This document shows positions 54,289-61,774 of a stretch of DNA of 63,494 nucleotides, piece after piece. The stretch comes from Opitutia bacterium (GTDB lineage: Bacteria > Verrucomicrobiota > Verrucomicrobiia > Opitutales > Opitutaceae). The position numbers and the translations under genes were made by a program. The notes under the pieces are model-generated. The model was not told where the DNA came from, searched no databases, and saw nothing but the letters and a program-made list of their open reading frames with translations. The stretch's first letter is position 1; every line of letters starts with the position of its first letter. The stretch spans positions 1-63,494 of the forward strand of contig CANJCM010000018.1 of the NCBI GenBank assembly GCA_947472765.1, given 5' to 3'.

Positions 54289-55044
54289 CTATGGCGCTAT
54301 CACCACGCGGTAGAATCCCGGCGCGAGACGGTCACCAAGTCGGAAGGTCTGTGCAAGATACTTTCGGAAGTAAATATTCACCTCTTCAACCCGCGAATCC
54401 GCCGTGATCACGAGTGGGCCGACCAGTCCCGCCCGATCAATCGCTACCATAAACTCCAACGGCTGCCAGACCTTCGTGGTCGGCGGAGCGGCCGACGCGG
54501 GCACCGGGGCACGCAGCACCGTCTGCCCGCTCGACTCAGCCACGACCTCAATGAAGCCACCACGGGGATTACCAGGGGTGGCAGCGACCTCAGCCCGGCC
54601 AAATCCGATCAGCAGTTCTCCCGGCGCCGCGGCGGCGAGGGTATCTTCCGGGCGGGCTGCTCCCGGAACCTTGCCGTTGAGCGTCACGATCGGAGGCAAT
54701 TCGGCGGTCAAATTGAGCCCTCCCTCCCCGATGCTTAACTTTGGGGGATCGTTGTCGAGGAACGTCTTGCCGGGCTCCCTGCGCGGGAGTTCTGACGGGG
54801 CCGAATTGCGCTCCGTGGGAAGAAAAAGCGGGGTCGTGTCGCGCATCACGGCCTGCTCATGGAGTACGGAATTCGCTGCATCGGGCTGCAGCAGGACAAC
54901 CTCCGCCCGGCGTTCGCCAGCGACCGAAAAGGGCACGACCGGGAGCGGTGCGCGAAACAGGAAAAGCGCCAGCGCAAAGACGCTGGCAGCGCCCGCGGCA
55001 GCCGCGGCCCAACGTTCCTTTCCGCCTGTCCGCGAGGCGTTCAC
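54289..55044 (-). CDS. TonB-like envelope protein
   Basis: The 251-residue protein has a cytosolic basic start, one membrane helix (about 12-31, AAAAAGAASVFALALFLFRA), a long periplasmic linker and a C-terminal domain of about 95 residues. The latter (WQPLEFMVAIDRAG, then RLAPGFYRVVIAP) recalls the strand pattern of TonB C-terminal domains, but the usual YP and SSG motifs are not clear. The GTG start at 55044 directly follows the TAA of the ExbD-like gene. Position and topology support a TonB/TolA-like partner of the ExbB/ExbD pair. A TPR protein gene begins the same unit. Confidence 0.68.
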   Translation of the reverse strand: MNASRTGGKERWAAAAAGAASVFALALFLFRAPLPVVPFSVAGERRAEVVLLQPDAANSVLHEQAVMRDTTPLFLPTERNSAPSELPRREPGKTFLDNDPPKLSIGEGGLNLTAELPPIVTLNGKVPGAARPEDTLAAAAPGELLIGFGRAEVAATPGNPRGGFIEVVAESSGQTVLRAPVPASAAPPTTKVWQPLEFMVAIDRAGLVGPLVITADSRVEEVNIYFRKYLAQTFRLGDRLAPGFYRVVIAP

Positions 55045-55494
55045 TTAGCGCTTTCGGCCCGGCCGGTTCGCTTCTGGTTCGACCGCGGCCGACAACACCC
55101 GCTTGAAGCCGGCCGCTGAGGCCGCATTGGCGATGTCGGCCAGCAGCGAAACGCGCACCTCGCGGCTGGCCCGCACGATCAGTACGGGCTCCCGGGTCCT
55201 GGCCGCCTCCTGCCGCAACCAGTCGGCCAATTGATCAAGGGTGCGCAGGCCATCGGCGAAAATCTGACCGGAGTCGGTCACGCTCACCACGCTGGTCGGG
55301 GCCACCGCGGACGCCGTCGCCCCACTCGCCTGCGGCAGCCGGAACTCCAGCGCCATGCCCGGTGCGAGCACAAACGGGGAACCGAAGACCGCAAAGTACA
55401 GCCCCAGCAGCCCCGCGTTGACATAAAAGAGCCAGTCGAAGTTGCGCGGTTCCGGGCGGAGCCGAGACGCGAGATCCAGCGGGCGCGTAATCAT
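55045..55494 (-). CDS. ExbD/TolR-like protein lacking the membrane aspartate
   Basis: The 149-residue protein has the ExbD layout: a short cytosolic start, one membrane helix (about 21-45) and a periplasmic domain (SVTDSGQIFADG, PVLIVRASREVRVSLLADI, AGFKRVLSAAVE) that aligns over its length. In ExbD and TolR the helix holds an essential Asp (PF-I-D); here the aligned residue is Asn26 (FYVNAGLLGLYF). The distance to the next conserved Pro (15 positions) fixes the alignment. Asp20, six residues earlier, is the only nearby acid. It overlaps the ExbB-like gene by 4 bases. Confidence 0.85.
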   Translation of the reverse strand: MITRPLDLASRLRPEPRNFDWLFYVNAGLLGLYFAVFGSPFVLAPGMALEFRLPQASGATASAVAPTSVVSVTDSGQIFADGLRTLDQLADWLRQEAARTREPVLIVRASREVRVSLLADIANAASAAGFKRVLSAAVEPEANRPGRKR

Positions 55495-56165
55495 TTTCTC
55501 GTCGCCAGCAGCCCCACCGGAACGTCAGCCGCCGGCTTCTCGGCGCGATACTCGGTCAGCAGGAACTTCATGATTTCGTTACCCGACCATTCCACGTCCC
55601 GAACAATCGATCGCACCCGACCGTTCAGGAAGTGGTGCGCGAGGTGCGCGGGAATCGCCAGCATCAGGCTCGCCGCCGCTGCCAGCAGCGCGTGCCACAT
55701 CCCGCCCGACAACGCGTCGGCCATGGCATATGGGCCGCCCTGTTCAAAGGCTCGAAAGGTCGAAATCATCCCGAGCACGGTGCCGAGGATACCAACCAGC
55801 GGCGCCACCTGCGCGATGGCGGCAATGGATCCCAGGCGTCGTTCCAGCGCCGGCAACTCCACAATCGCCGCTTCCTGCACGTGAAAGCGCATCACCTCCG
55901 GGGGCTCCTCGGCATGCAGCAGCGCCGCCTTCACCACGGCCGCCACCGGGCCGGGCGTCTCTTCGCACACCGTCAACGCCTCAATCAGCCGGCGTTTGGC
56001 CAGGATGTTCTTCACGCCATCGACAAACGCCTTCGCGCGAATCTGGCCGCGATGCAGGAAGAGCGTGCGCTCGATGAAGAGCATGACCCCCACCATGCCC
56101 AGCGCGAGCAGCACCCAAAGGATGGCGCCTCCCTTTGCAAAGACACTGGAATCGAACCCGGGCAT
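55491..56165 (-). CDS. ExbB/TolQ-like protein lacking the second channel threonine
   Basis: The 224-residue protein has three membrane helices, at about 12-32, 115-138 and 156-178, as in ExbB/TolQ. The family core is clear (APLVGILGTVLGMISTF and ALLAAAASLMLAIPAH). The first channel Thr is kept (Thr129 in LGTV), but the second, normally in ALLATA, is Ala163. Start ATG 56165 gives MPGFDSSVFAKGG. The gene is the second of a four-gene unit and 104 bases after the TPR gene. Confidence 0.88.
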   Translation of the reverse strand: MPGFDSSVFAKGGAILWVLLALGMVGVMLFIERTLFLHRGQIRAKAFVDGVKNILAKRRLIEALTVCEETPGPVAAVVKAALLHAEEPPEVMRFHVQEAAIVELPALERRLGSIAAIAQVAPLVGILGTVLGMISTFRAFEQGGPYAMADALSGGMWHALLAAAASLMLAIPAHLAHHFLNGRVRSIVRDVEWSGNEIMKFLLTEYRAEKPAADVPVGLLATRK

Positions 56166-56269: not shown

Positions 56270-58948
56270 TCACAGCTTCGCCGTTGGCTGGCCCAACCGC
56301 TCGAGATTGGCCTTCGCCACTGCCTCGAAGTGCCCGAGCTTCCGATCGAGCAGCAACCGGTAGACGGTGCGGGCTTCGTCGATGCGCTGCTGCTTTTCGA
56401 GCAGTTCGCCAAGACTGAGCAGGGTGCTCGCCAGCCAGAACGGGCGCTTCGCTCCGGGCTCGATGCCCTTTTGATCGTCCACGAGGAAGGCGTTCACGAC
56501 GTCCCACCACACGCCCATCGCGCGCTCCGGCTGGCCCCGCCATTCCAGCAGCAGCCCGAGGTTGTAACCGGCTTCCACCCGCACGTCCGGCGGCGCATCC
56601 ACCCGATCCCGCAGCTCCTCGAACTTCAACCGCGCGATTTCCGCGTGCGCCGGATCGGTGAGCCGCTGGGCGTGGTGCGTCTGCGCCAGCCGCAACTGGG
56701 CCAGGACGACGTCCGGCCGGCGCGGATACCGATTGACGAGATCCTCGTAAGCCCGCTGGGCACGCGGGAAATCGTTCAGCAGCCGGAACAGATCCCCCTG
56801 CTTCAGCCGCGCGGCGAAAATCAGGTCCGGCTGGTCCGCCGCCGCGGCACTGTTCACCAGCTGCTCGATCCGCCGGTTCGCCTCCTCGTAATTTTTTTCG
56901 CCCCTCAGGCGCTCCGAAAGCAGCGCGAGCTGGAAGAGGGCATACGGAACGTAGACGCTTTTCTCGTACGCCGGGTTGTCCGTCAGCCTAGCCAGTTGCT
57001 GCTGCGCCTTCGCAATTTGATCCTGATCACCATAGTAGCCGGCCAGCACGAGGTAGGAATAAATCGCCGCGTCCGTATTCGGGAATTCCCCACGCAGCTT
57101 GTTGAAACTCTCCAGCGCCGCTTCCTCCCGGCCGGCCGCCAGCTCCGCCCGGCCGCGCAGCAGGATCAGGTCGCTACTGATCTCTTTCTTCAACGCCTCG
57201 TCCACCGTCAGCGGCGACTGGACCATCGTCGCGACCAACCCGAGCGTCTGGTCATAGGCCCCGGCTTCGAACGACAGCCGCGCCTGCAGCCACGCCATCC
57301 GCGCCTTCAACTCCGGTTGAATCGCGCCAATCGCCGCCGACTCGGCGCTCGCGCCCCCCGTCGCATTGCCCAGGAGGCGAGTCACGCGATCGTAGGCCTC
57401 CGCGGTCGCACCCTGCCGGCGCAACGCGCGCGCCAGATGCCACTCCGCCTGCCACCGGTTCTCGACGTCGAAGGCCGGGTCGGCGGAGAGCTGATCCAAA
57501 ATCGACGCCGCCTGCCCCGAGCCGGAATTAATCTCCGCCACGACCCGCTGGAACATCAGTTCGCCCAACTGCTTTGATTCGATGCCGGCCGGCCGTTCCC
57601 GCAGGACCGCCGCATAGGCATCCGCCGCCGACCGGTAATCCTCGGCGCGAAACCACGCCTCGGCCTCGAGGATGCCGAGGTCCGCCCGGGCCCGGCCGAC
57701 CGTCCCCGGCAATTCCGCCCGCGCCCGCCGCGCATTATCCGCCACCGTCCGGTAACGTCGCTGCTCCCAGGCTGATTGCGTCAGGACCCCATAGGCATGC
57801 GCGCGCAGCGACGAACCGGGGAAATCCTTGAGCAGCAGATTCGCATCCCGCTCGGCCTGCACGTAGTCGCCTTCAGACAAGGCCAGCTGCGCCCGATAAA
57901 AGAGCAGACTTTCCCGGATCGAATGCGGCGGGGTCAGGCCGATGAGCCGGTTCAGCTCGGCGCGAAAATGCCCCCGCTCGGGTTCGGCCCGCGATGCCTC
58001 CGCGAGCAACTGCAATGCCTGCCGTTGCCGCTCGCGATCGTAACCGCTCGCCAGCAATTGCACGAGGGCGTTGCGGCCGGATCCGTTCCGGGTCCGATCG
58101 CCAATCAGGCCGAGGTCGAGCCGCAGCTTGTCCCACCACACGCGCTCCTGCCGCGGCAGGCCGATTAACTCCGCCTGAAGAAAATTCACGGCGTCGCGCT
58201 GCCGCCCAAGCAGGGAGAGGGCAATTGCGTGCGCCTCGGCGAACGAGTAACCAATCGGTGTGCCCTTCTGCCGCTCGTAGTTGTCGCGGCCGGCCTTCAG
58301 ATCCGCCTCCGTCTTCACGCCGGGGAGCTGCAACCGCACCTGTTCGGCGGCGAGTTGGAAACGGGCCTTGGCCAGATCAGTCGTCGCCGCCCCCTCGGCC
58401 ATTAAATAATAGCGGTTCGCCTCCGTCAGGTTACGCACCGCCGCCGTGTCCCAGAGCGCGCCCGCCAAAAACCAATACCAGGCGCGATCAGGCGGCGGCA
58501 GTTCCGCCTCCCTGAGGCCATCCCACGCCGCCTGCGCTGCGTCGCGCTTCTTCAGCTGCAGCGCCGCCAGGCCAGCCCGCAGCTGCCAGGTGGCACCCCT
58601 CGGTTCCGGCAGCGTGGCCAGCGCCTGCTCCGCCTCGTCGGCCCGACCGGCGTCCAACAGCGCCGTCGCCAAAGCCAGCGTCAGTCTTTCCCGATCGCCA
58701 CCCGGAGTTTCGAGCAACTGGCGGTACAAACCGGCGGCGATCGAGGAGAGTCCGAGATTCTGCGCCCGGATCGCCGCATCCAATGCCACGGCGTGCTGGC
58801 CGGCCGATTGCCCCGGGGCTTGAACAAAGGGAACTGGCGGATTGAGCGGCTCCGGCACCTGAGCGGACGCCGAGGCCCCGAGACCGACCACGACAAGGGC
58901 CAGCACCCGCCGAAAAATTTTCCTCCGTTCATTCACGCAGGCCCTCAT
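56270..58948 (-). CDS. Exported large TPR-repeat protein
   Basis: The 892-residue protein has a signal peptide (about residues 1-29, cleavage near ASAQ) and is otherwise helical. Many degenerate tetratricopeptide repeats show the W/L-G-Y-A/F-A-P pattern, for example FRLLNDFPRAQRAYEDLVNR and YNLGLLLEWRGQPERAM. Such proteins act as scaffolds in the periplasm, like CpoB/YbgF of the Tol system. ATG 58948 gives the signal peptide; the TTG upstream is unlikely. It opens the unit with the ExbB, ExbD and TonB-like genes, and is divergent from the LemA gene (113-base gap). Confidence 0.85.
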   Translation of the reverse strand: MRACVNERRKIFRRVLALVVVGLGASASAQVPEPLNPPVPFVQAPGQSAGQHAVALDAAIRAQNLGLSSIAAGLYRQLLETPGGDRERLTLALATALLDAGRADEAEQALATLPEPRGATWQLRAGLAALQLKKRDAAQAAWDGLREAELPPPDRAWYWFLAGALWDTAAVRNLTEANRYYLMAEGAATTDLAKARFQLAAEQVRLQLPGVKTEADLKAGRDNYERQKGTPIGYSFAEAHAIALSLLGRQRDAVNFLQAELIGLPRQERVWWDKLRLDLGLIGDRTRNGSGRNALVQLLASGYDRERQRQALQLLAEASRAEPERGHFRAELNRLIGLTPPHSIRESLLFYRAQLALSEGDYVQAERDANLLLKDFPGSSLRAHAYGVLTQSAWEQRRYRTVADNARRARAELPGTVGRARADLGILEAEAWFRAEDYRSAADAYAAVLRERPAGIESKQLGELMFQRVVAEINSGSGQAASILDQLSADPAFDVENRWQAEWHLARALRRQGATAEAYDRVTRLLGNATGGASAESAAIGAIQPELKARMAWLQARLSFEAGAYDQTLGLVATMVQSPLTVDEALKKEISSDLILLRGRAELAAGREEAALESFNKLRGEFPNTDAAIYSYLVLAGYYGDQDQIAKAQQQLARLTDNPAYEKSVYVPYALFQLALLSERLRGEKNYEEANRRIEQLVNSAAAADQPDLIFAARLKQGDLFRLLNDFPRAQRAYEDLVNRYPRRPDVVLAQLRLAQTHHAQRLTDPAHAEIARLKFEELRDRVDAPPDVRVEAGYNLGLLLEWRGQPERAMGVWWDVVNAFLVDDQKGIEPGAKRPFWLASTLLSLGELLEKQQRIDEARTVYRLLLDRKLGHFEAVAKANLERLGQPTAKL

Positions 58949-59061
58949 TTTGTTCGCCGGCGCCGCAACAATCAACCGCGTTGTATCAATTCCGACTCGC
59001 GCGCCACGGCAATCGACGACAGAAGGATTCGCGTTTTCGTTCCGACTTTTCCCTCCCCGCC

Positions 59062-59664
59062 ATGACCACTTCCCTTCTCGTGCTCGGCGCGCTCCTCATA
59101 GCCGCCATCGTTTTCGTCCTGTGGATTGTGGGCATCTACAACTCGCTCGTTGCCCTCCGCAACCGGTTCAAGAACGCCTTCTCCCAGATCGAGGTGCAAC
59201 TCAAGCGCCGCTACGATCTCATTCCCAATCTCGTCGAAACCGCGAAGGGGTATCTCAAACACGAGCGGGAGACACTCGAGGCCGTGATCAAGGCGCGTAA
59301 CATCGCCCTCGCCGCCTCGCAGTCGGTCGCCGCCAATCCGGCTGACGCCACCAGTATGAAGGGCCTCGTCGCCGCCGAAACCGGCCTGGCCGGCGCCCTC
59401 TCCCGGCTGATGGTCGTCGCCGAGCAGTATCCGGAACTCAAAGCCAACCAGAACATGCTCCAGCTCACCGAGGAGCTGACCTCGACTGAGAACAAAATCG
59501 CTTTCGCGCGGCAGGCTTACAACGACAGCGTCATGACCTACAACACCGCCCGCGAAATCTTCCCGGCGGTCGCCTTCGCCGGCGCGATGGGCTTTCAGCC
59601 CGCCGAGTTGTTTCGCATCGAGGACGCCGCGGAACGGACCGCCCCGAAGGTGAATTTCGGCTGA
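59062..59664 (+). CDS. LemA family membrane protein
   Basis: The 200-residue protein has an N-terminal membrane helix (about 5-27) and the LemA coiled domain with YNSLVALRNRFKNAFSQIEV, LKRRYDLIPNLVETAKGYLK and FARQAYNDSVMTYNTAREIF. ATG 59062 (MTTSLL) places the helix properly. It is 124 bases upstream of an M48 protease gene, an arrangement seen in many bacteria; the role in envelope maintenance is not settled. Confidence 0.93.
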   Translation: MTTSLLVLGALLIAAIVFVLWIVGIYNSLVALRNRFKNAFSQIEVQLKRRYDLIPNLVETAKGYLKHERETLEAVIKARNIALAASQSVAANPADATSMKGLVAAETGLAGALSRLMVVAEQYPELKANQNMLQLTEELTSTENKIAFARQAYNDSVMTYNTAREIFPAVAFAGAMGFQPAELFRIEDAAERTAPKVNFG

Positions 59665-59667
59665 GCG

Positions 59668-59785
59668 GATTTTCGATTTTGGATTCTCGCTTTTGGATTG
59701 GGGCGACCGCCCGTCCGTTGGCAGCGCATCCCGGCGACCGCGACCGCTGAGAATCGAAAAACCAGATTCGCAAATCGCAAATTCC
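59668..59785. repeat. GATTTT-type repeats between the LemA and M48 genes
   Basis: GATTTTCGATTTTGGATTCT (59669-59688) and TTTTGGATTG are followed by the complementary phase GAGAATCGAAAAACC and CAAATCGCAAATTCCCC near 59750-59787. The block fills the gap between the two plus-strand genes and ends two bases before the M48 start codon. Confidence 0.75.
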
Positions 59786-59788
59786 CCA

Positions 59789-61774
59789 ATGGACTTCTTC
59801 GAGGCCCAGGCCCGGGCGCGCCGGCGCACGAGCCGGCTGATTGCGCTCTTCATCGTCGCTGTCCTCGGGACCATCGCCGCCGGCTACCTCGGCGCAATTG
59901 CGATCCTCGGTCAGATTTCGCCCCGGGCCGGCTACTATCAGACCGGCGACTGGAACGTGGCAGTCTACGGAGGCGGAACGAAGCCACCGCCGAGGACACG
60001 ATGGTGGGATCCGGGATTGCTCGCCTTGGTGACCATCGGCACGACCACGGTGGTCGGACTCGCCGCGCTCTATAAATGGCGGGAGTTCGCCAGCGGCGGC
60101 GGGGCCGTGGCGGAGAGTGTGGGCGGCCGGCTCGTGGATCCCGCGACCACGGACGGCGCCGAGCGCCGGTTGCTCAACGTGGTGGAGGAAATGGCAATCG
60201 CCGCCGGTCTGCCGGTGCCGGGCGTGTACCTCCTGCCGGAGGAGGCCGGCATCAACGCCTTCGCCGCCGGATTGACGCCGAACGATGCGGTGGTCGCCGT
60301 GACCCGCGGCACGGTGCAGAAGCTGACCCGCGATGAACTGCAGGGCGTCGTCGCGCATGAATTCAGCCACATCCTGAACGGCGACATGCGGATGAACCTC
60401 CGAATCGCCGCCATCGTCTTCGGAATCCTCGTACTCGGCCTCGCCGGACGCGGCATCCTCTGGTCGCTGCGCGGCGTGCGCTCCCGCGGCAAGAGTTCGG
60501 GCGGAATCATCGCGCTCGCCGTCGTCACCGGACTGATGCTGATCGTCATCGGTTACGTCGGCTATTTCTTCGGCCGGATGATTCAGGCCGCGGTCTCGCG
60601 GCAGCGCGAATTCCTCGCGGATGCCTCGGCGGTTCAGTTCACGCGCAATCCGGGCGGGCTGCTCGGCGCCCTGAAGAAGATCGGCGGCTATGCCCTCGGG
60701 TCCTCGCTCCAGTCGAGCCGGAGCACGGCCATCGGCCACTTCTTTTTCGCGCAAGCCTTCCGCACCGGATTGACCGGGCTGTGGTCAACCCACCCACCGC
60801 TGGAGGAGCGGATCCGGGCGATTGATCCGAGCTTCGACGGGGAAATGTTCGATCCACCCGAGGTCGTCGACGTCGCGCGCGAGTCCTTTGTCGACGCCGG
60901 GGTCGGGGGCGTGCGCCGGCCGGTGGCGGCATTCGCGTCCGCGGCCGCCCGGATCCGGTTGCCGGCGACCGGTCTCTTCGGCAGCCCCTCCCTCACCCCC
61001 GCCCAACTCGAAAATGCCCAGGCCCTGCTCGCCGCCACACCGACGGAGCTCCGTCTGCAGGCCCGGACTGCTCCCGGGGCCTCCGCCCTCGTCTACGGCC
61101 TGCTGCTCGACGTGAACCCGCTGCTCCGCGCCAAACAGCTCGCCCTCATCGCCCGGCTCCAGCCGAAGGTACAGGACGAACTCAATCGCCTGGCGCCGGC
61201 GGTGGCGGAGCTCCGGCCGGAGTACAAGCTACCCCTGCTCCAACTGGCACTGCCCGCGATCAAGACCCTGCCGCCGGAGGAAAAATCGGCCTTCCTTGGT
61301 GTGCTCGACGAGCTGGTCCACGCGGACGGTCAGGTCTCAATTTTCGAATTCGCGCTGCAACGGCTGGTCGCGCACGCCCTTGAGCTCAACGCCACGCCGG
61401 TGACGACCGGCGCCCGGATTCAGTCGTTCGCCGCAGTGGGGCCGGAAATTGCCACGGTGCTCTCCGCTCTCGCCCACCTCTCGGGCGGTTCGCCGGACGG
61501 GGCCCGCGCCGCCTTCGAACAAGGCCTCCGGGAGGTGCCCTTGCTGGCACAGGCGCACGAAATCCTGCCCGCCGACCAATGCCATCTCGCCGCCGTGGAG
61601 CGCGCTCTGGACCGGCTTGCGATCACGACCGACCCGATTCGCGCAAGGGTGCTGGCAGCCGCCGCCCGGGTCGCGGGAGCCGACAGCGGCATGCGGGTGG
61701 AGGAATACGAACTGCTCCGCGCGCTAGCCGCCGGGCTCGACTGCCCGCTTCCGCCCCTGGTGGCGGCGGCGTAA
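59789..61774 (+). CDS. M48-family membrane metalloprotease with C-terminal extension
   Basis: The 661-residue protein has two N-terminal membrane helices (about 16-42 and 76-96), then the M48 zinc protease with HEFSH (190-194), two further helices, and the third-ligand region EFLADASAVQF. The final 300 residues are an extra domain; its part LDELVHADGQVSIFEFALQR looks like the TerB/DjlA acid-helix fold. It resembles HtpX/YcaL-type proteases that remove damaged membrane proteins. ATG 59789 (MDFFEAQA) is chosen. It probably forms a unit with LemA. Confidence 0.9.
   Translation: MDFFEAQARARRRTSRLIALFIVAVLGTIAAGYLGAIAILGQISPRAGYYQTGDWNVAVYGGGTKPPPRTRWWDPGLLALVTIGTTTVVGLAALYKWREFASGGGAVAESVGGRLVDPATTDGAERRLLNVVEEMAIAAGLPVPGVYLLPEEAGINAFAAGLTPNDAVVAVTRGTVQKLTRDELQGVVAHEFSHILNGDMRMNLRIAAIVFGILVLGLAGRGILWSLRGVRSRGKSSGGIIALAVVTGLMLIVIGYVGYFFGRMIQAAVSRQREFLADASAVQFTRNPGGLLGALKKIGGYALGSSLQSSRSTAIGHFFFAQAFRTGLTGLWSTHPPLEERIRAIDPSFDGEMFDPPEVVDVARESFVDAGVGGVRRPVAAFASAAARIRLPATGLFGSPSLTPAQLENAQALLAATPTELRLQARTAPGASALVYGLLLDVNPLLRAKQLALIARLQPKVQDELNRLAPAVAELRPEYKLPLLQLALPAIKTLPPEEKSAFLGVLDELVHADGQVSIFEFALQRLVAHALELNATPVTTGARIQSFAAVGPEIATVLSALAHLSGGSPDGARAAFEQGLREVPLLAQAHEILPADQCHLAAVERALDRLAITTDPIRARVLAAAARVAGADSGMRVEEYELLRALAAGLDCPLPPLVAAA

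Follow-up and report, generated by a model that had tools for sequence, protein, structure and literature searches.

Repeated loss of the membrane aspartate and of further motor residues in an ExbB/ExbD-like gene cluster of the Opitutales

In Escherichia coli, the pore residues of the motor complexes are ExbD Asp25 together with ExbB Thr148 and Thr181, and TolR Asp23 together with TolQ Thr145 and Thr178 (PMC12965293). Ser16 and His20 of TonB contact Ser34 and Trp38 of ExbB (PMC12215075), and the E. coli mutants ExbD D25N and TonB H20A are described as inactive (PMC11658791). GldL-GldM of type IX secretion is a ring-plus-dimer motor with its essential acid located in the ring protein, not in the ExbD-like subunit (PMC8986121). 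Clusters described from PVC bacteria comprise genes of a tetratricopeptide-repeat (TPR) protein, a TolQ-like protein, two TolR-like proteins as well as a vWA transducer in which a His is conserved; a conserved Asp is reported for a second, TolR-less vWA family (PMC12204202). All of these sources are quoted from excerpts. Within the excerpts available from the open-licence PubMed Central literature, including PMC12204202, PMC9389320, PMC12505986, PMC3169522 and PMC13274419, neither an ExbD or TolR protein devoid of the Asp nor a dead motor of the ExbB/TolQ/MotA type was found, which is not proof of absence.

The window analyzed here, i.e. the whole stretch of 63,494 nucleotides from an Opitutia bacterium (Opitutaceae; contig CANJCM010000018.1), contains four closely packed genes of the same direction, coding for a TPR protein, an ExbB-like protein, an ExbD-like protein and a one-helix transducer-like protein (Table 1). 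The cluster adjoins genes which by eye resemble tufA, nusG, rplKAJ and rpoBC, the identity of rpoB being upheld by its matches. Two genes located divergently from the cluster at 58981-61774 (plus strand) appear by eye to be LemA-like and M48 metalloprotease-like. Both motor proteins passed the curated Pfam cut-offs (22.9 bits for the ExbB-like protein; 25.4 bits for the ExbD-like protein, matched over residues 45-133), and their genes overlap by 4 bases. The best NCBIfam score of the ExbB-like protein was that of TolQ (65.3 bits, under the cut-off of 221), and the profile of the ExbD-like family matched solved ExbD at 1.2e-8. The repeats of the TPR protein show weak likeness to those of Tol-Pal YbgF/CpoB and BamD, the score towards NCBIfam tol_pal_ybgF being 53.4 bits (under the cut-off of 90.1). 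Pfam TPR matches were detected in six of eight upstream frames scanned, the exceptions being L078, whose upstream frame is ClpB-like, and L105; a TPR partner is therefore not present everywhere.

Table 1. Location of the cluster genes and of the codons discussed in the text (window coordinates)
Feature	Coordinates	Strand	Evidence
Large TPR protein, first cluster gene, 901 aa, TTG start	56270..58975	minus	TPR_6 5.6e-13
ExbB/TolQ-like protein, 224 aa	55491..56165	minus	PF01618 89.3 bits; alignment to solved TolQ/ExbB; column counts
ExbD/TolR-like protein, 149 aa, ExbD-like periplasmic domain	55045..55494	minus	PF02472 34.4 bits; solved-ExbD match; hhalign
Transducer-like protein, 251 aa; GTG start directly after the ExbD stop; single membrane helix at the N-terminus, conserved C-terminal region	54289..55044	minus	position and orthologues with membrane His; no family match
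Codon AAC, Asn26 of ExbD-like protein	55417..55419	minus	read directly
Codon GCG, Ala163 of ExbB-like protein (equivalent to ExbB Thr181/TolQ Thr178)	55677..55679	minus	alignment
Codon for Thr129 of ExbB-like protein (equivalent to ExbB Thr148/TolQ Thr145)	55779..55781	minus	alignment
Codon for Gly23 of ExbB-like protein (equivalent to TolQ Ser28/ExbB Ser34)	56097..56099	minus	counted from start codon at 56165; alignment

The original prediction, that the ExbD-like protein carries Asn26 in place of the membrane Asp corresponding to ExbD Asp25 and TolR Asp23, was borne out: the codon at 55419-55417 reads AAC, and the column was confirmed by joint alignment. This column contains Asp in 16/16 canonical ExbDs and in all 79 Asp-bearing orthologues, which align gaplessly there; the remaining 76 orthologues have N (68), A (5), T (2) or S (1). 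The canonical set consisted of four proteins from the window genome and 12 fetched paralogues, the latter being a weak control, since they were among the top-scoring matches and the search pattern demanded Asp. The column did not change when the canonical ExbDs were aligned with the Asp-less proteins only, i.e. with the bridging sequences omitted. When the Asp-less family was compared by hhalign with these 16 canonical proteins, the probability was 98.3%, and the match, which begins at residue 31, is in the same register. The spacing to a downstream proline, also put forward in favor of the register, provides no evidence and was dropped: the site of Pro40 is mostly Arg among relatives, and the conserved proline is Pro45, which the HMMER profile alignment pairs with the Pro of solved ExbDs. 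The Pro of the xPxxD motif is present in 55 of the 79 Asp-bearing ExbDs; the 56 Asp-less proteins of the window family all lack it.

An initial search with protein P0001 yielded matches in 49 of 57 genomes, and the 30 loci kept had N (25), A (4) or S (1) at the site. Profile matches occurred in 215 of 273 genomes of the order; these include non-orthologues, the best hits of family f2 being canonical paralogues. After removal of five duplicate loci (L042, L043, L045, L053, L054), 155 loci were read, 7 of them without an ExbB hit and 25 without a transducer hit. Within the window family (f1), 56 of 60 orthologues lack the Asp (N 51, A 4, S 1), and the four loci keeping it belong to the genera g42 and g44. 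A supplementary set of 30 loci, from which 11 were left out as canonical paralogues rather than orthologues, added 19 loci with N (3), A (2), S (4), T (2), L (6), M (1) or D (1) at this site. Among the 24 families read, several of which rest on a single locus, the Asp is kept at every locus in 13 (f3, f4, f5, f8, f9, f10, f11, f14, f16, f18, f20, f22 and f24), mixed in two (f1 and f21) and absent in nine (f7, f13, f15, f19, f23, f25, f26, f27 and f28). In f21, the genus g78 includes both states, Asn at the G139 locus and Asp at the G163 locus. Scanning named genomes brought up 80 loci: 79 were readable by the pattern, all of them with N, and one was unread. The pattern was derived from the window clade and so samples that clade rather than ExbD proteins in general. 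The replacement (N, A or S) extends throughout the window clade. Sister homologues with the usual Asp and Thr, which the original reading had named as evidence against itself, do exist, but they occur in other genera and families.

The first channel threonine of the ExbB-like protein, Thr129, is retained in the window protein, as predicted, and among the 56 Asp-less f1 loci the site is Thr in 55 and Ser in one. The second, for which Ala163 had been claimed, is indeed Ala in the window; clade-wide, however, this replacement is not fixed (T 30, A 20, V 3, S 3), so that the 56 Asp-less f1 members, the window included, have Thr or Ser in 33 cases and have lost it in 23. All 75 Asp-bearing loci with an ExbB hit carry Thr at the first site and Thr or Ser at the second. 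The 17 Asp-less loci outside f1 showed T (12), V (4) or I (1) at the first and T (10), I (5), A (1) or S (1) at the second site; among the loci added later, the four of f27 have Val or Ile at the first site and Ile at the second, and the six of genus g29 (f19) have Ala at both. In the window genome, the TolQ-like protein carries Ile at this second site beside a TolR with its Asp intact, indicating that the second Thr is no strict marker. The equivalent of ExbB Glu176 was rejected as evidence, this position being L, E or G in the canonical proteins of the window genome. Position 119 of ExbB is Arg, Lys or His in 72 of 75 Asp-bearing loci and in 12 of 17 Asp-less loci outside f1, and Gln in 55 of 56 Asp-less f1 loci (Gln119 in the window). 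All four f26 loci (L106, L107, L153, L154) have Glu at position 169 in helix 3, a candidate for a moved ion site.

The transducer-like protein of the window had no Pfam match and nothing above chance, NCBIfam included, and the C-terminal domain of TonB/TolA was not matched. Among 43 transducer members there was one match to TonB_2 (0.0023) and one to TonB_C (0.068); homology to TonB by sequence, with an hhalign probability of 9%, is unsupported. We call the protein TonB-like from its position and from its orthologues which bear the membrane His. This His (SHLS motif), missing from the window protein, is present in 50 of 70 Asp-bearing loci; all 60 Asp-less loci in which a transducer was hit, 56 of them from f1, lack it. 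Position 23 of ExbB, which aligns to TolQ Ser28 and is Gly23 in the window, is Ser in 46 of 47 loci with both Asp and His (one gap). Where the Asp is kept without the His it is A (12), S (4) or G (3), and loci that keep the Asp but gave no transducer hit have S (6) or A (3). The 56 Asp-less f1 loci have G (29) or A (27) and never Ser, and the 17 Asp-less loci outside f1 have S (5), G (6), A (3), F (2) and one gap. The states of the transducer His and of ExbB Ser23 coincide at 120 of 124 loci; at the other four, Ser is present without His. This agreement ties the fourth gene to ExbB as a side-bound transducer better than the family searches do. The original statement that everything apart from the proton-path residues was intact is therefore wrong, as the TonB-contact Ser, the His of the partner and the Pro of xPxxD are lost as well. 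Asp-bearing ExbB/ExbD pairs with a His-less transducer were observed in f9, f10, f14, f16 and f18 and in parts of f11 and f21 (G163); they are possibly intermediates or differently coupled motors. In several loci (L105, L125 and L138 of f25; L268 of f7; L255, L258, L271 and L272 of f19) the genes downstream of the Asp-less ExbD gene are unrelated ones, which by eye resemble those of MutS, MutL and undecaprenyl-diphosphate synthase, and no transducer is recognizable there.

An rpoB tree was calculated for 98 genomes, 97 of which have an ExbD state (42 with Asp, 55 without). The fewest Asp changes on this tree are four, and a loss-only model requires at least four losses and, under other rootings, up to 15. 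Because the reduced genomes have long branches, both the deep branching order and the number of losses are uncertain. None of the pair tests among the results listed opposed the associations, most pairs being alike or too few. On well-supported branches (all branches in parentheses) there were 3 (4) pairs for Asp, 8 (9) for Thr163 against Asp, about seven of them without an Asp difference, 5 (8) for His against Asp and 4 (7) for His against Ser23; with so few independent events, sign tests cannot reach 0.05. For the tree tests, in which only tree tips count, five genomes lacked a profile hit (G106, G076, G203, G187, G072), and their His state was set by hand. Nei-Gojobori dN/dS values were 0.05-0.25 for ten Asp-less ExbD pairs (an eleventh pair has identical ExbDs), with dS at or above 1.0 in three of the nine such pairs of the window family, and 0.05-0.12 for ten Asp-less ExbB pairs, compared with 0.05-0.10 (ExbD) and 0.02-0.06 (ExbB) for three Asp-bearing pairs. 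The Asp-less genes are under purifying selection, with slightly weaker constraint than the Asp-bearing ones; the low dN/dS indicates that they are maintained. The loss of the motor Asp in window-type pairs is real, old and repeated, and is accompanied by the loss of other motor residues.

The window genome encodes four further ExbD/TolR proteins, all with Asp, and gave 11 TonB_C matches; both TonB proteins read keep the membrane His. Contig C139 of this genome (L006:1456-2886, minus strand) codes for a protein of 476 aa with a central sigma-70 region 4 (3.3e-7) and an ExbD-like C-terminal segment, which scored 25.1 bits as a protein, just below the cut-off, and 27.8 bits in the genome search. 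When 30 genomes were searched with PF02472, the Asp-less protein was the sole match in 17, namely in four genomes each of f25, f26, f27 and f7 (genus g71) and in one of f15; as their completeness is 64-95%, single absences are weak, the pattern being stronger. Some of the reduced genomes with the Asp-less protein as the only ExbD-type protein are of 0.7-1.3 Mb, and in several of the sole-match lineages no transducer was recognized beside ExbD. A fifth g71 genome has one extra PF02472 match, below the cut-off, in a frame of 3,626 residues. G112 (f7) possesses a canonical ExbD as well, G158 (f28) had no PF02472 match, and the remaining ten genomes had three to seven matches.

Several explanations of the Asp-less state have to be weighed. 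The complex might still be an ion-driven motor with its site moved to ExbB His174, to the Glu occasionally found at ExbB position 158 or to ExbD Asp20, and GldLM offers a precedent for an acid in the ring protein (PMC8986121, excerpt). His174 is the sole titratable membrane site that has grown common in f1 (49 of 56 Asp-less f1 loci versus 9 of 75 Asp-bearing loci), and Thr129 is kept; in the other Asp-less lineages position 135 of ExbB is charged in 17 of 17 loci (K 9, D 4, E 2, R 1, H 1). Acidic residues occur at positions 112 and 169 in four of the 17 loci each. However, column counts of the 56 Asp-less against the Asp-bearing loci revealed no membrane column in f1 that gains an acid: Glu158 is commoner in Asp-bearing loci (23 of 75) than in Asp-less f1 loci (9 of 56), and an acid at position 135 is seen in 21 of 75 Asp-bearing loci but in just 1 of 56 Asp-less f1 loci. 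Asp20, which 53 of the 79 Asp-bearing orthologues possess and 11 of the 56 Asp-less f1 members lack, is ancestral and not gained, and was rejected as a substitute site; no other Asp of ExbD takes the pore position, an arrangement that the original reading had named as evidence against itself. Position 174 is charged or His in only 2 of the 17 Asp-less loci outside f1, those at 135 are basic in most cases and vary with the lineage, and the His-Ser coupling contact is lost too. We therefore consider a moved ion site unlikely.

A canonical ExbD encoded elsewhere in the genome might supply the Asp to a mixed dimer with the Asp-less protein. The Asp-bearing ExbD/TolR proteins of the window genome and the canonical ExbD of G112 would permit this, but the sole-match condition in 17 reduced genomes, spread over the five families f7, f15, f25, f26 and f27, and the erosion of the ExbB side as well, speak against it; such a dimer, possible in the window genome and unlikely in the reduced genomes, is a very improbable general explanation. 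Alternatively, Asn could lock the complex in a protonated-like state with a gated or regulatory conformational role and no ion cycling, in line with the description of MotB D22N as protonation-mimetic (PMC9389320, excerpt) and with N as the commonest replacement (51 of 56 in f1). The presence of A and S in f1 and of A, S, T, L and M elsewhere implies that no single mimic is required, and we regard this idea as improbable. Finally, most of the named records are metagenome-assembled, which might point to sequencing error, an assembly artefact or pseudogene decay. The state is, however, shared by dozens of genomes and also by records that carry no MAG tag, namely the three of Cephaloticoccus capnophilus CV41, Geminisphaera colitermitum TAV2 and Opitutaceae EW11; the genes show low dN/dS, and since N, A or S occurs throughout the window clade, sequence error or recent decay is no explanation; the chance of it is practically negligible, and it was rejected for the clade.

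The comparative evidence fits best with the reading that the ExbB/ExbD complex of the window family is probably de-energized and forms a static envelope scaffold independent of the proton motive force (PMF). The ancestor of the TPR - ExbB - ExbD - TonB-like cluster would have been a proton-driven trans-envelope motor, the residues of which persist in 13 other families. In the window family, the Asp of ExbD has been replaced by Asn (by Ala or Ser in a few cases), the second Thr of ExbB varies, and the membrane His of the transducer and the Ser of ExbB that would touch it have been lost. The remaining complex would most likely consist of an ExbB ring enclosing an ExbD dimer, which may serve as an inner-membrane anchor for the periplasmic domain of ExbD and for the TonB-like and TPR proteins. 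The substitutions with their distribution, their joint occurrence and the purifying selection are observed; the absence of proton flow, the preserved ring assembly and the scaffold role are what we infer from sequence comparison. The loss of both pore Thr/Ser residues in some Asp-less lineages outside f1 counts for a scaffold. Counting against it are Thr129, kept in 55 of 56 f1 loci, which a dead pore need not keep, the 20 Asp-bearing loci without the His, the 5 of 17 Asp-less loci outside f1 that keep Ser23, and His174 as a possible substitute. The charged membrane residues of ExbB in the other Asp-less lineages lower both the scaffold reading and the broader one, and raise that of a moved site. 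The broader proposal, for which the chances appear close to even, is that ExbB/ExbD motors have repeatedly turned into pseudo-motors, in which the proton site, the pore Thr and the transducer contact would be dismantled and the proteins selected as PMF-independent scaffolds. Of the two readings offered originally, a structural complex without ion flow is thus favored over a motor using another residue or ion; the latter is unsupported in f1, and less excluded outside f1, e.g. in f26 with its Glu in ExbB helix 3.

The interest of the cluster lies in the natural loss of both kinds of residue, the ExbD Asp and the transducer His, in one cluster, with the matching ExbB contact lost too and the genes persisting. 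If the scaffold reading is true, selection can act on a ring-plus-dimer complex for something other than ion-driven work, and gene names such as 'proton channel' or 'biopolymer transporter' would be misleading for these proteins. Relatives with and without the Asp represent natural pairs for testing an ion-independent function.

Compared with described systems, the window cluster resembles ExbB-ExbD-TonB in its adjacent ExbB and ExbD genes scoring over the Pfam cut-offs, in the ExbD-type periplasmic domain, in the neighboring single-helix transducer-like gene and in Thr129; it differs in the absence of the membrane Asp, the transducer His and the ExbB contact Ser, in the variable second Thr, and in the lack of any TonB-family match. 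Likeness to TolQ-TolR-TolA with YbgF/CpoB (Tol-Pal) lies in the ExbB-like protein scoring best with TolQ (65.3 bits) and in the YbgF-like TPR partner (53.4 bits), but both scores are below the respective cut-offs (221 and 90.1), and again Asp, His and contact Ser are missing. GldL, according to the excerpt cited above, carries a conserved membrane Glu, whereas none was found in the window family. As in the PVC vWA clusters, to the extent covered by the excerpt of PMC12204202, the TPR gene precedes the TolQ-like gene; the window cluster, in contrast, has a single ExbD, devoid of the Asp, and a transducer with neither the His nor a vWA match.
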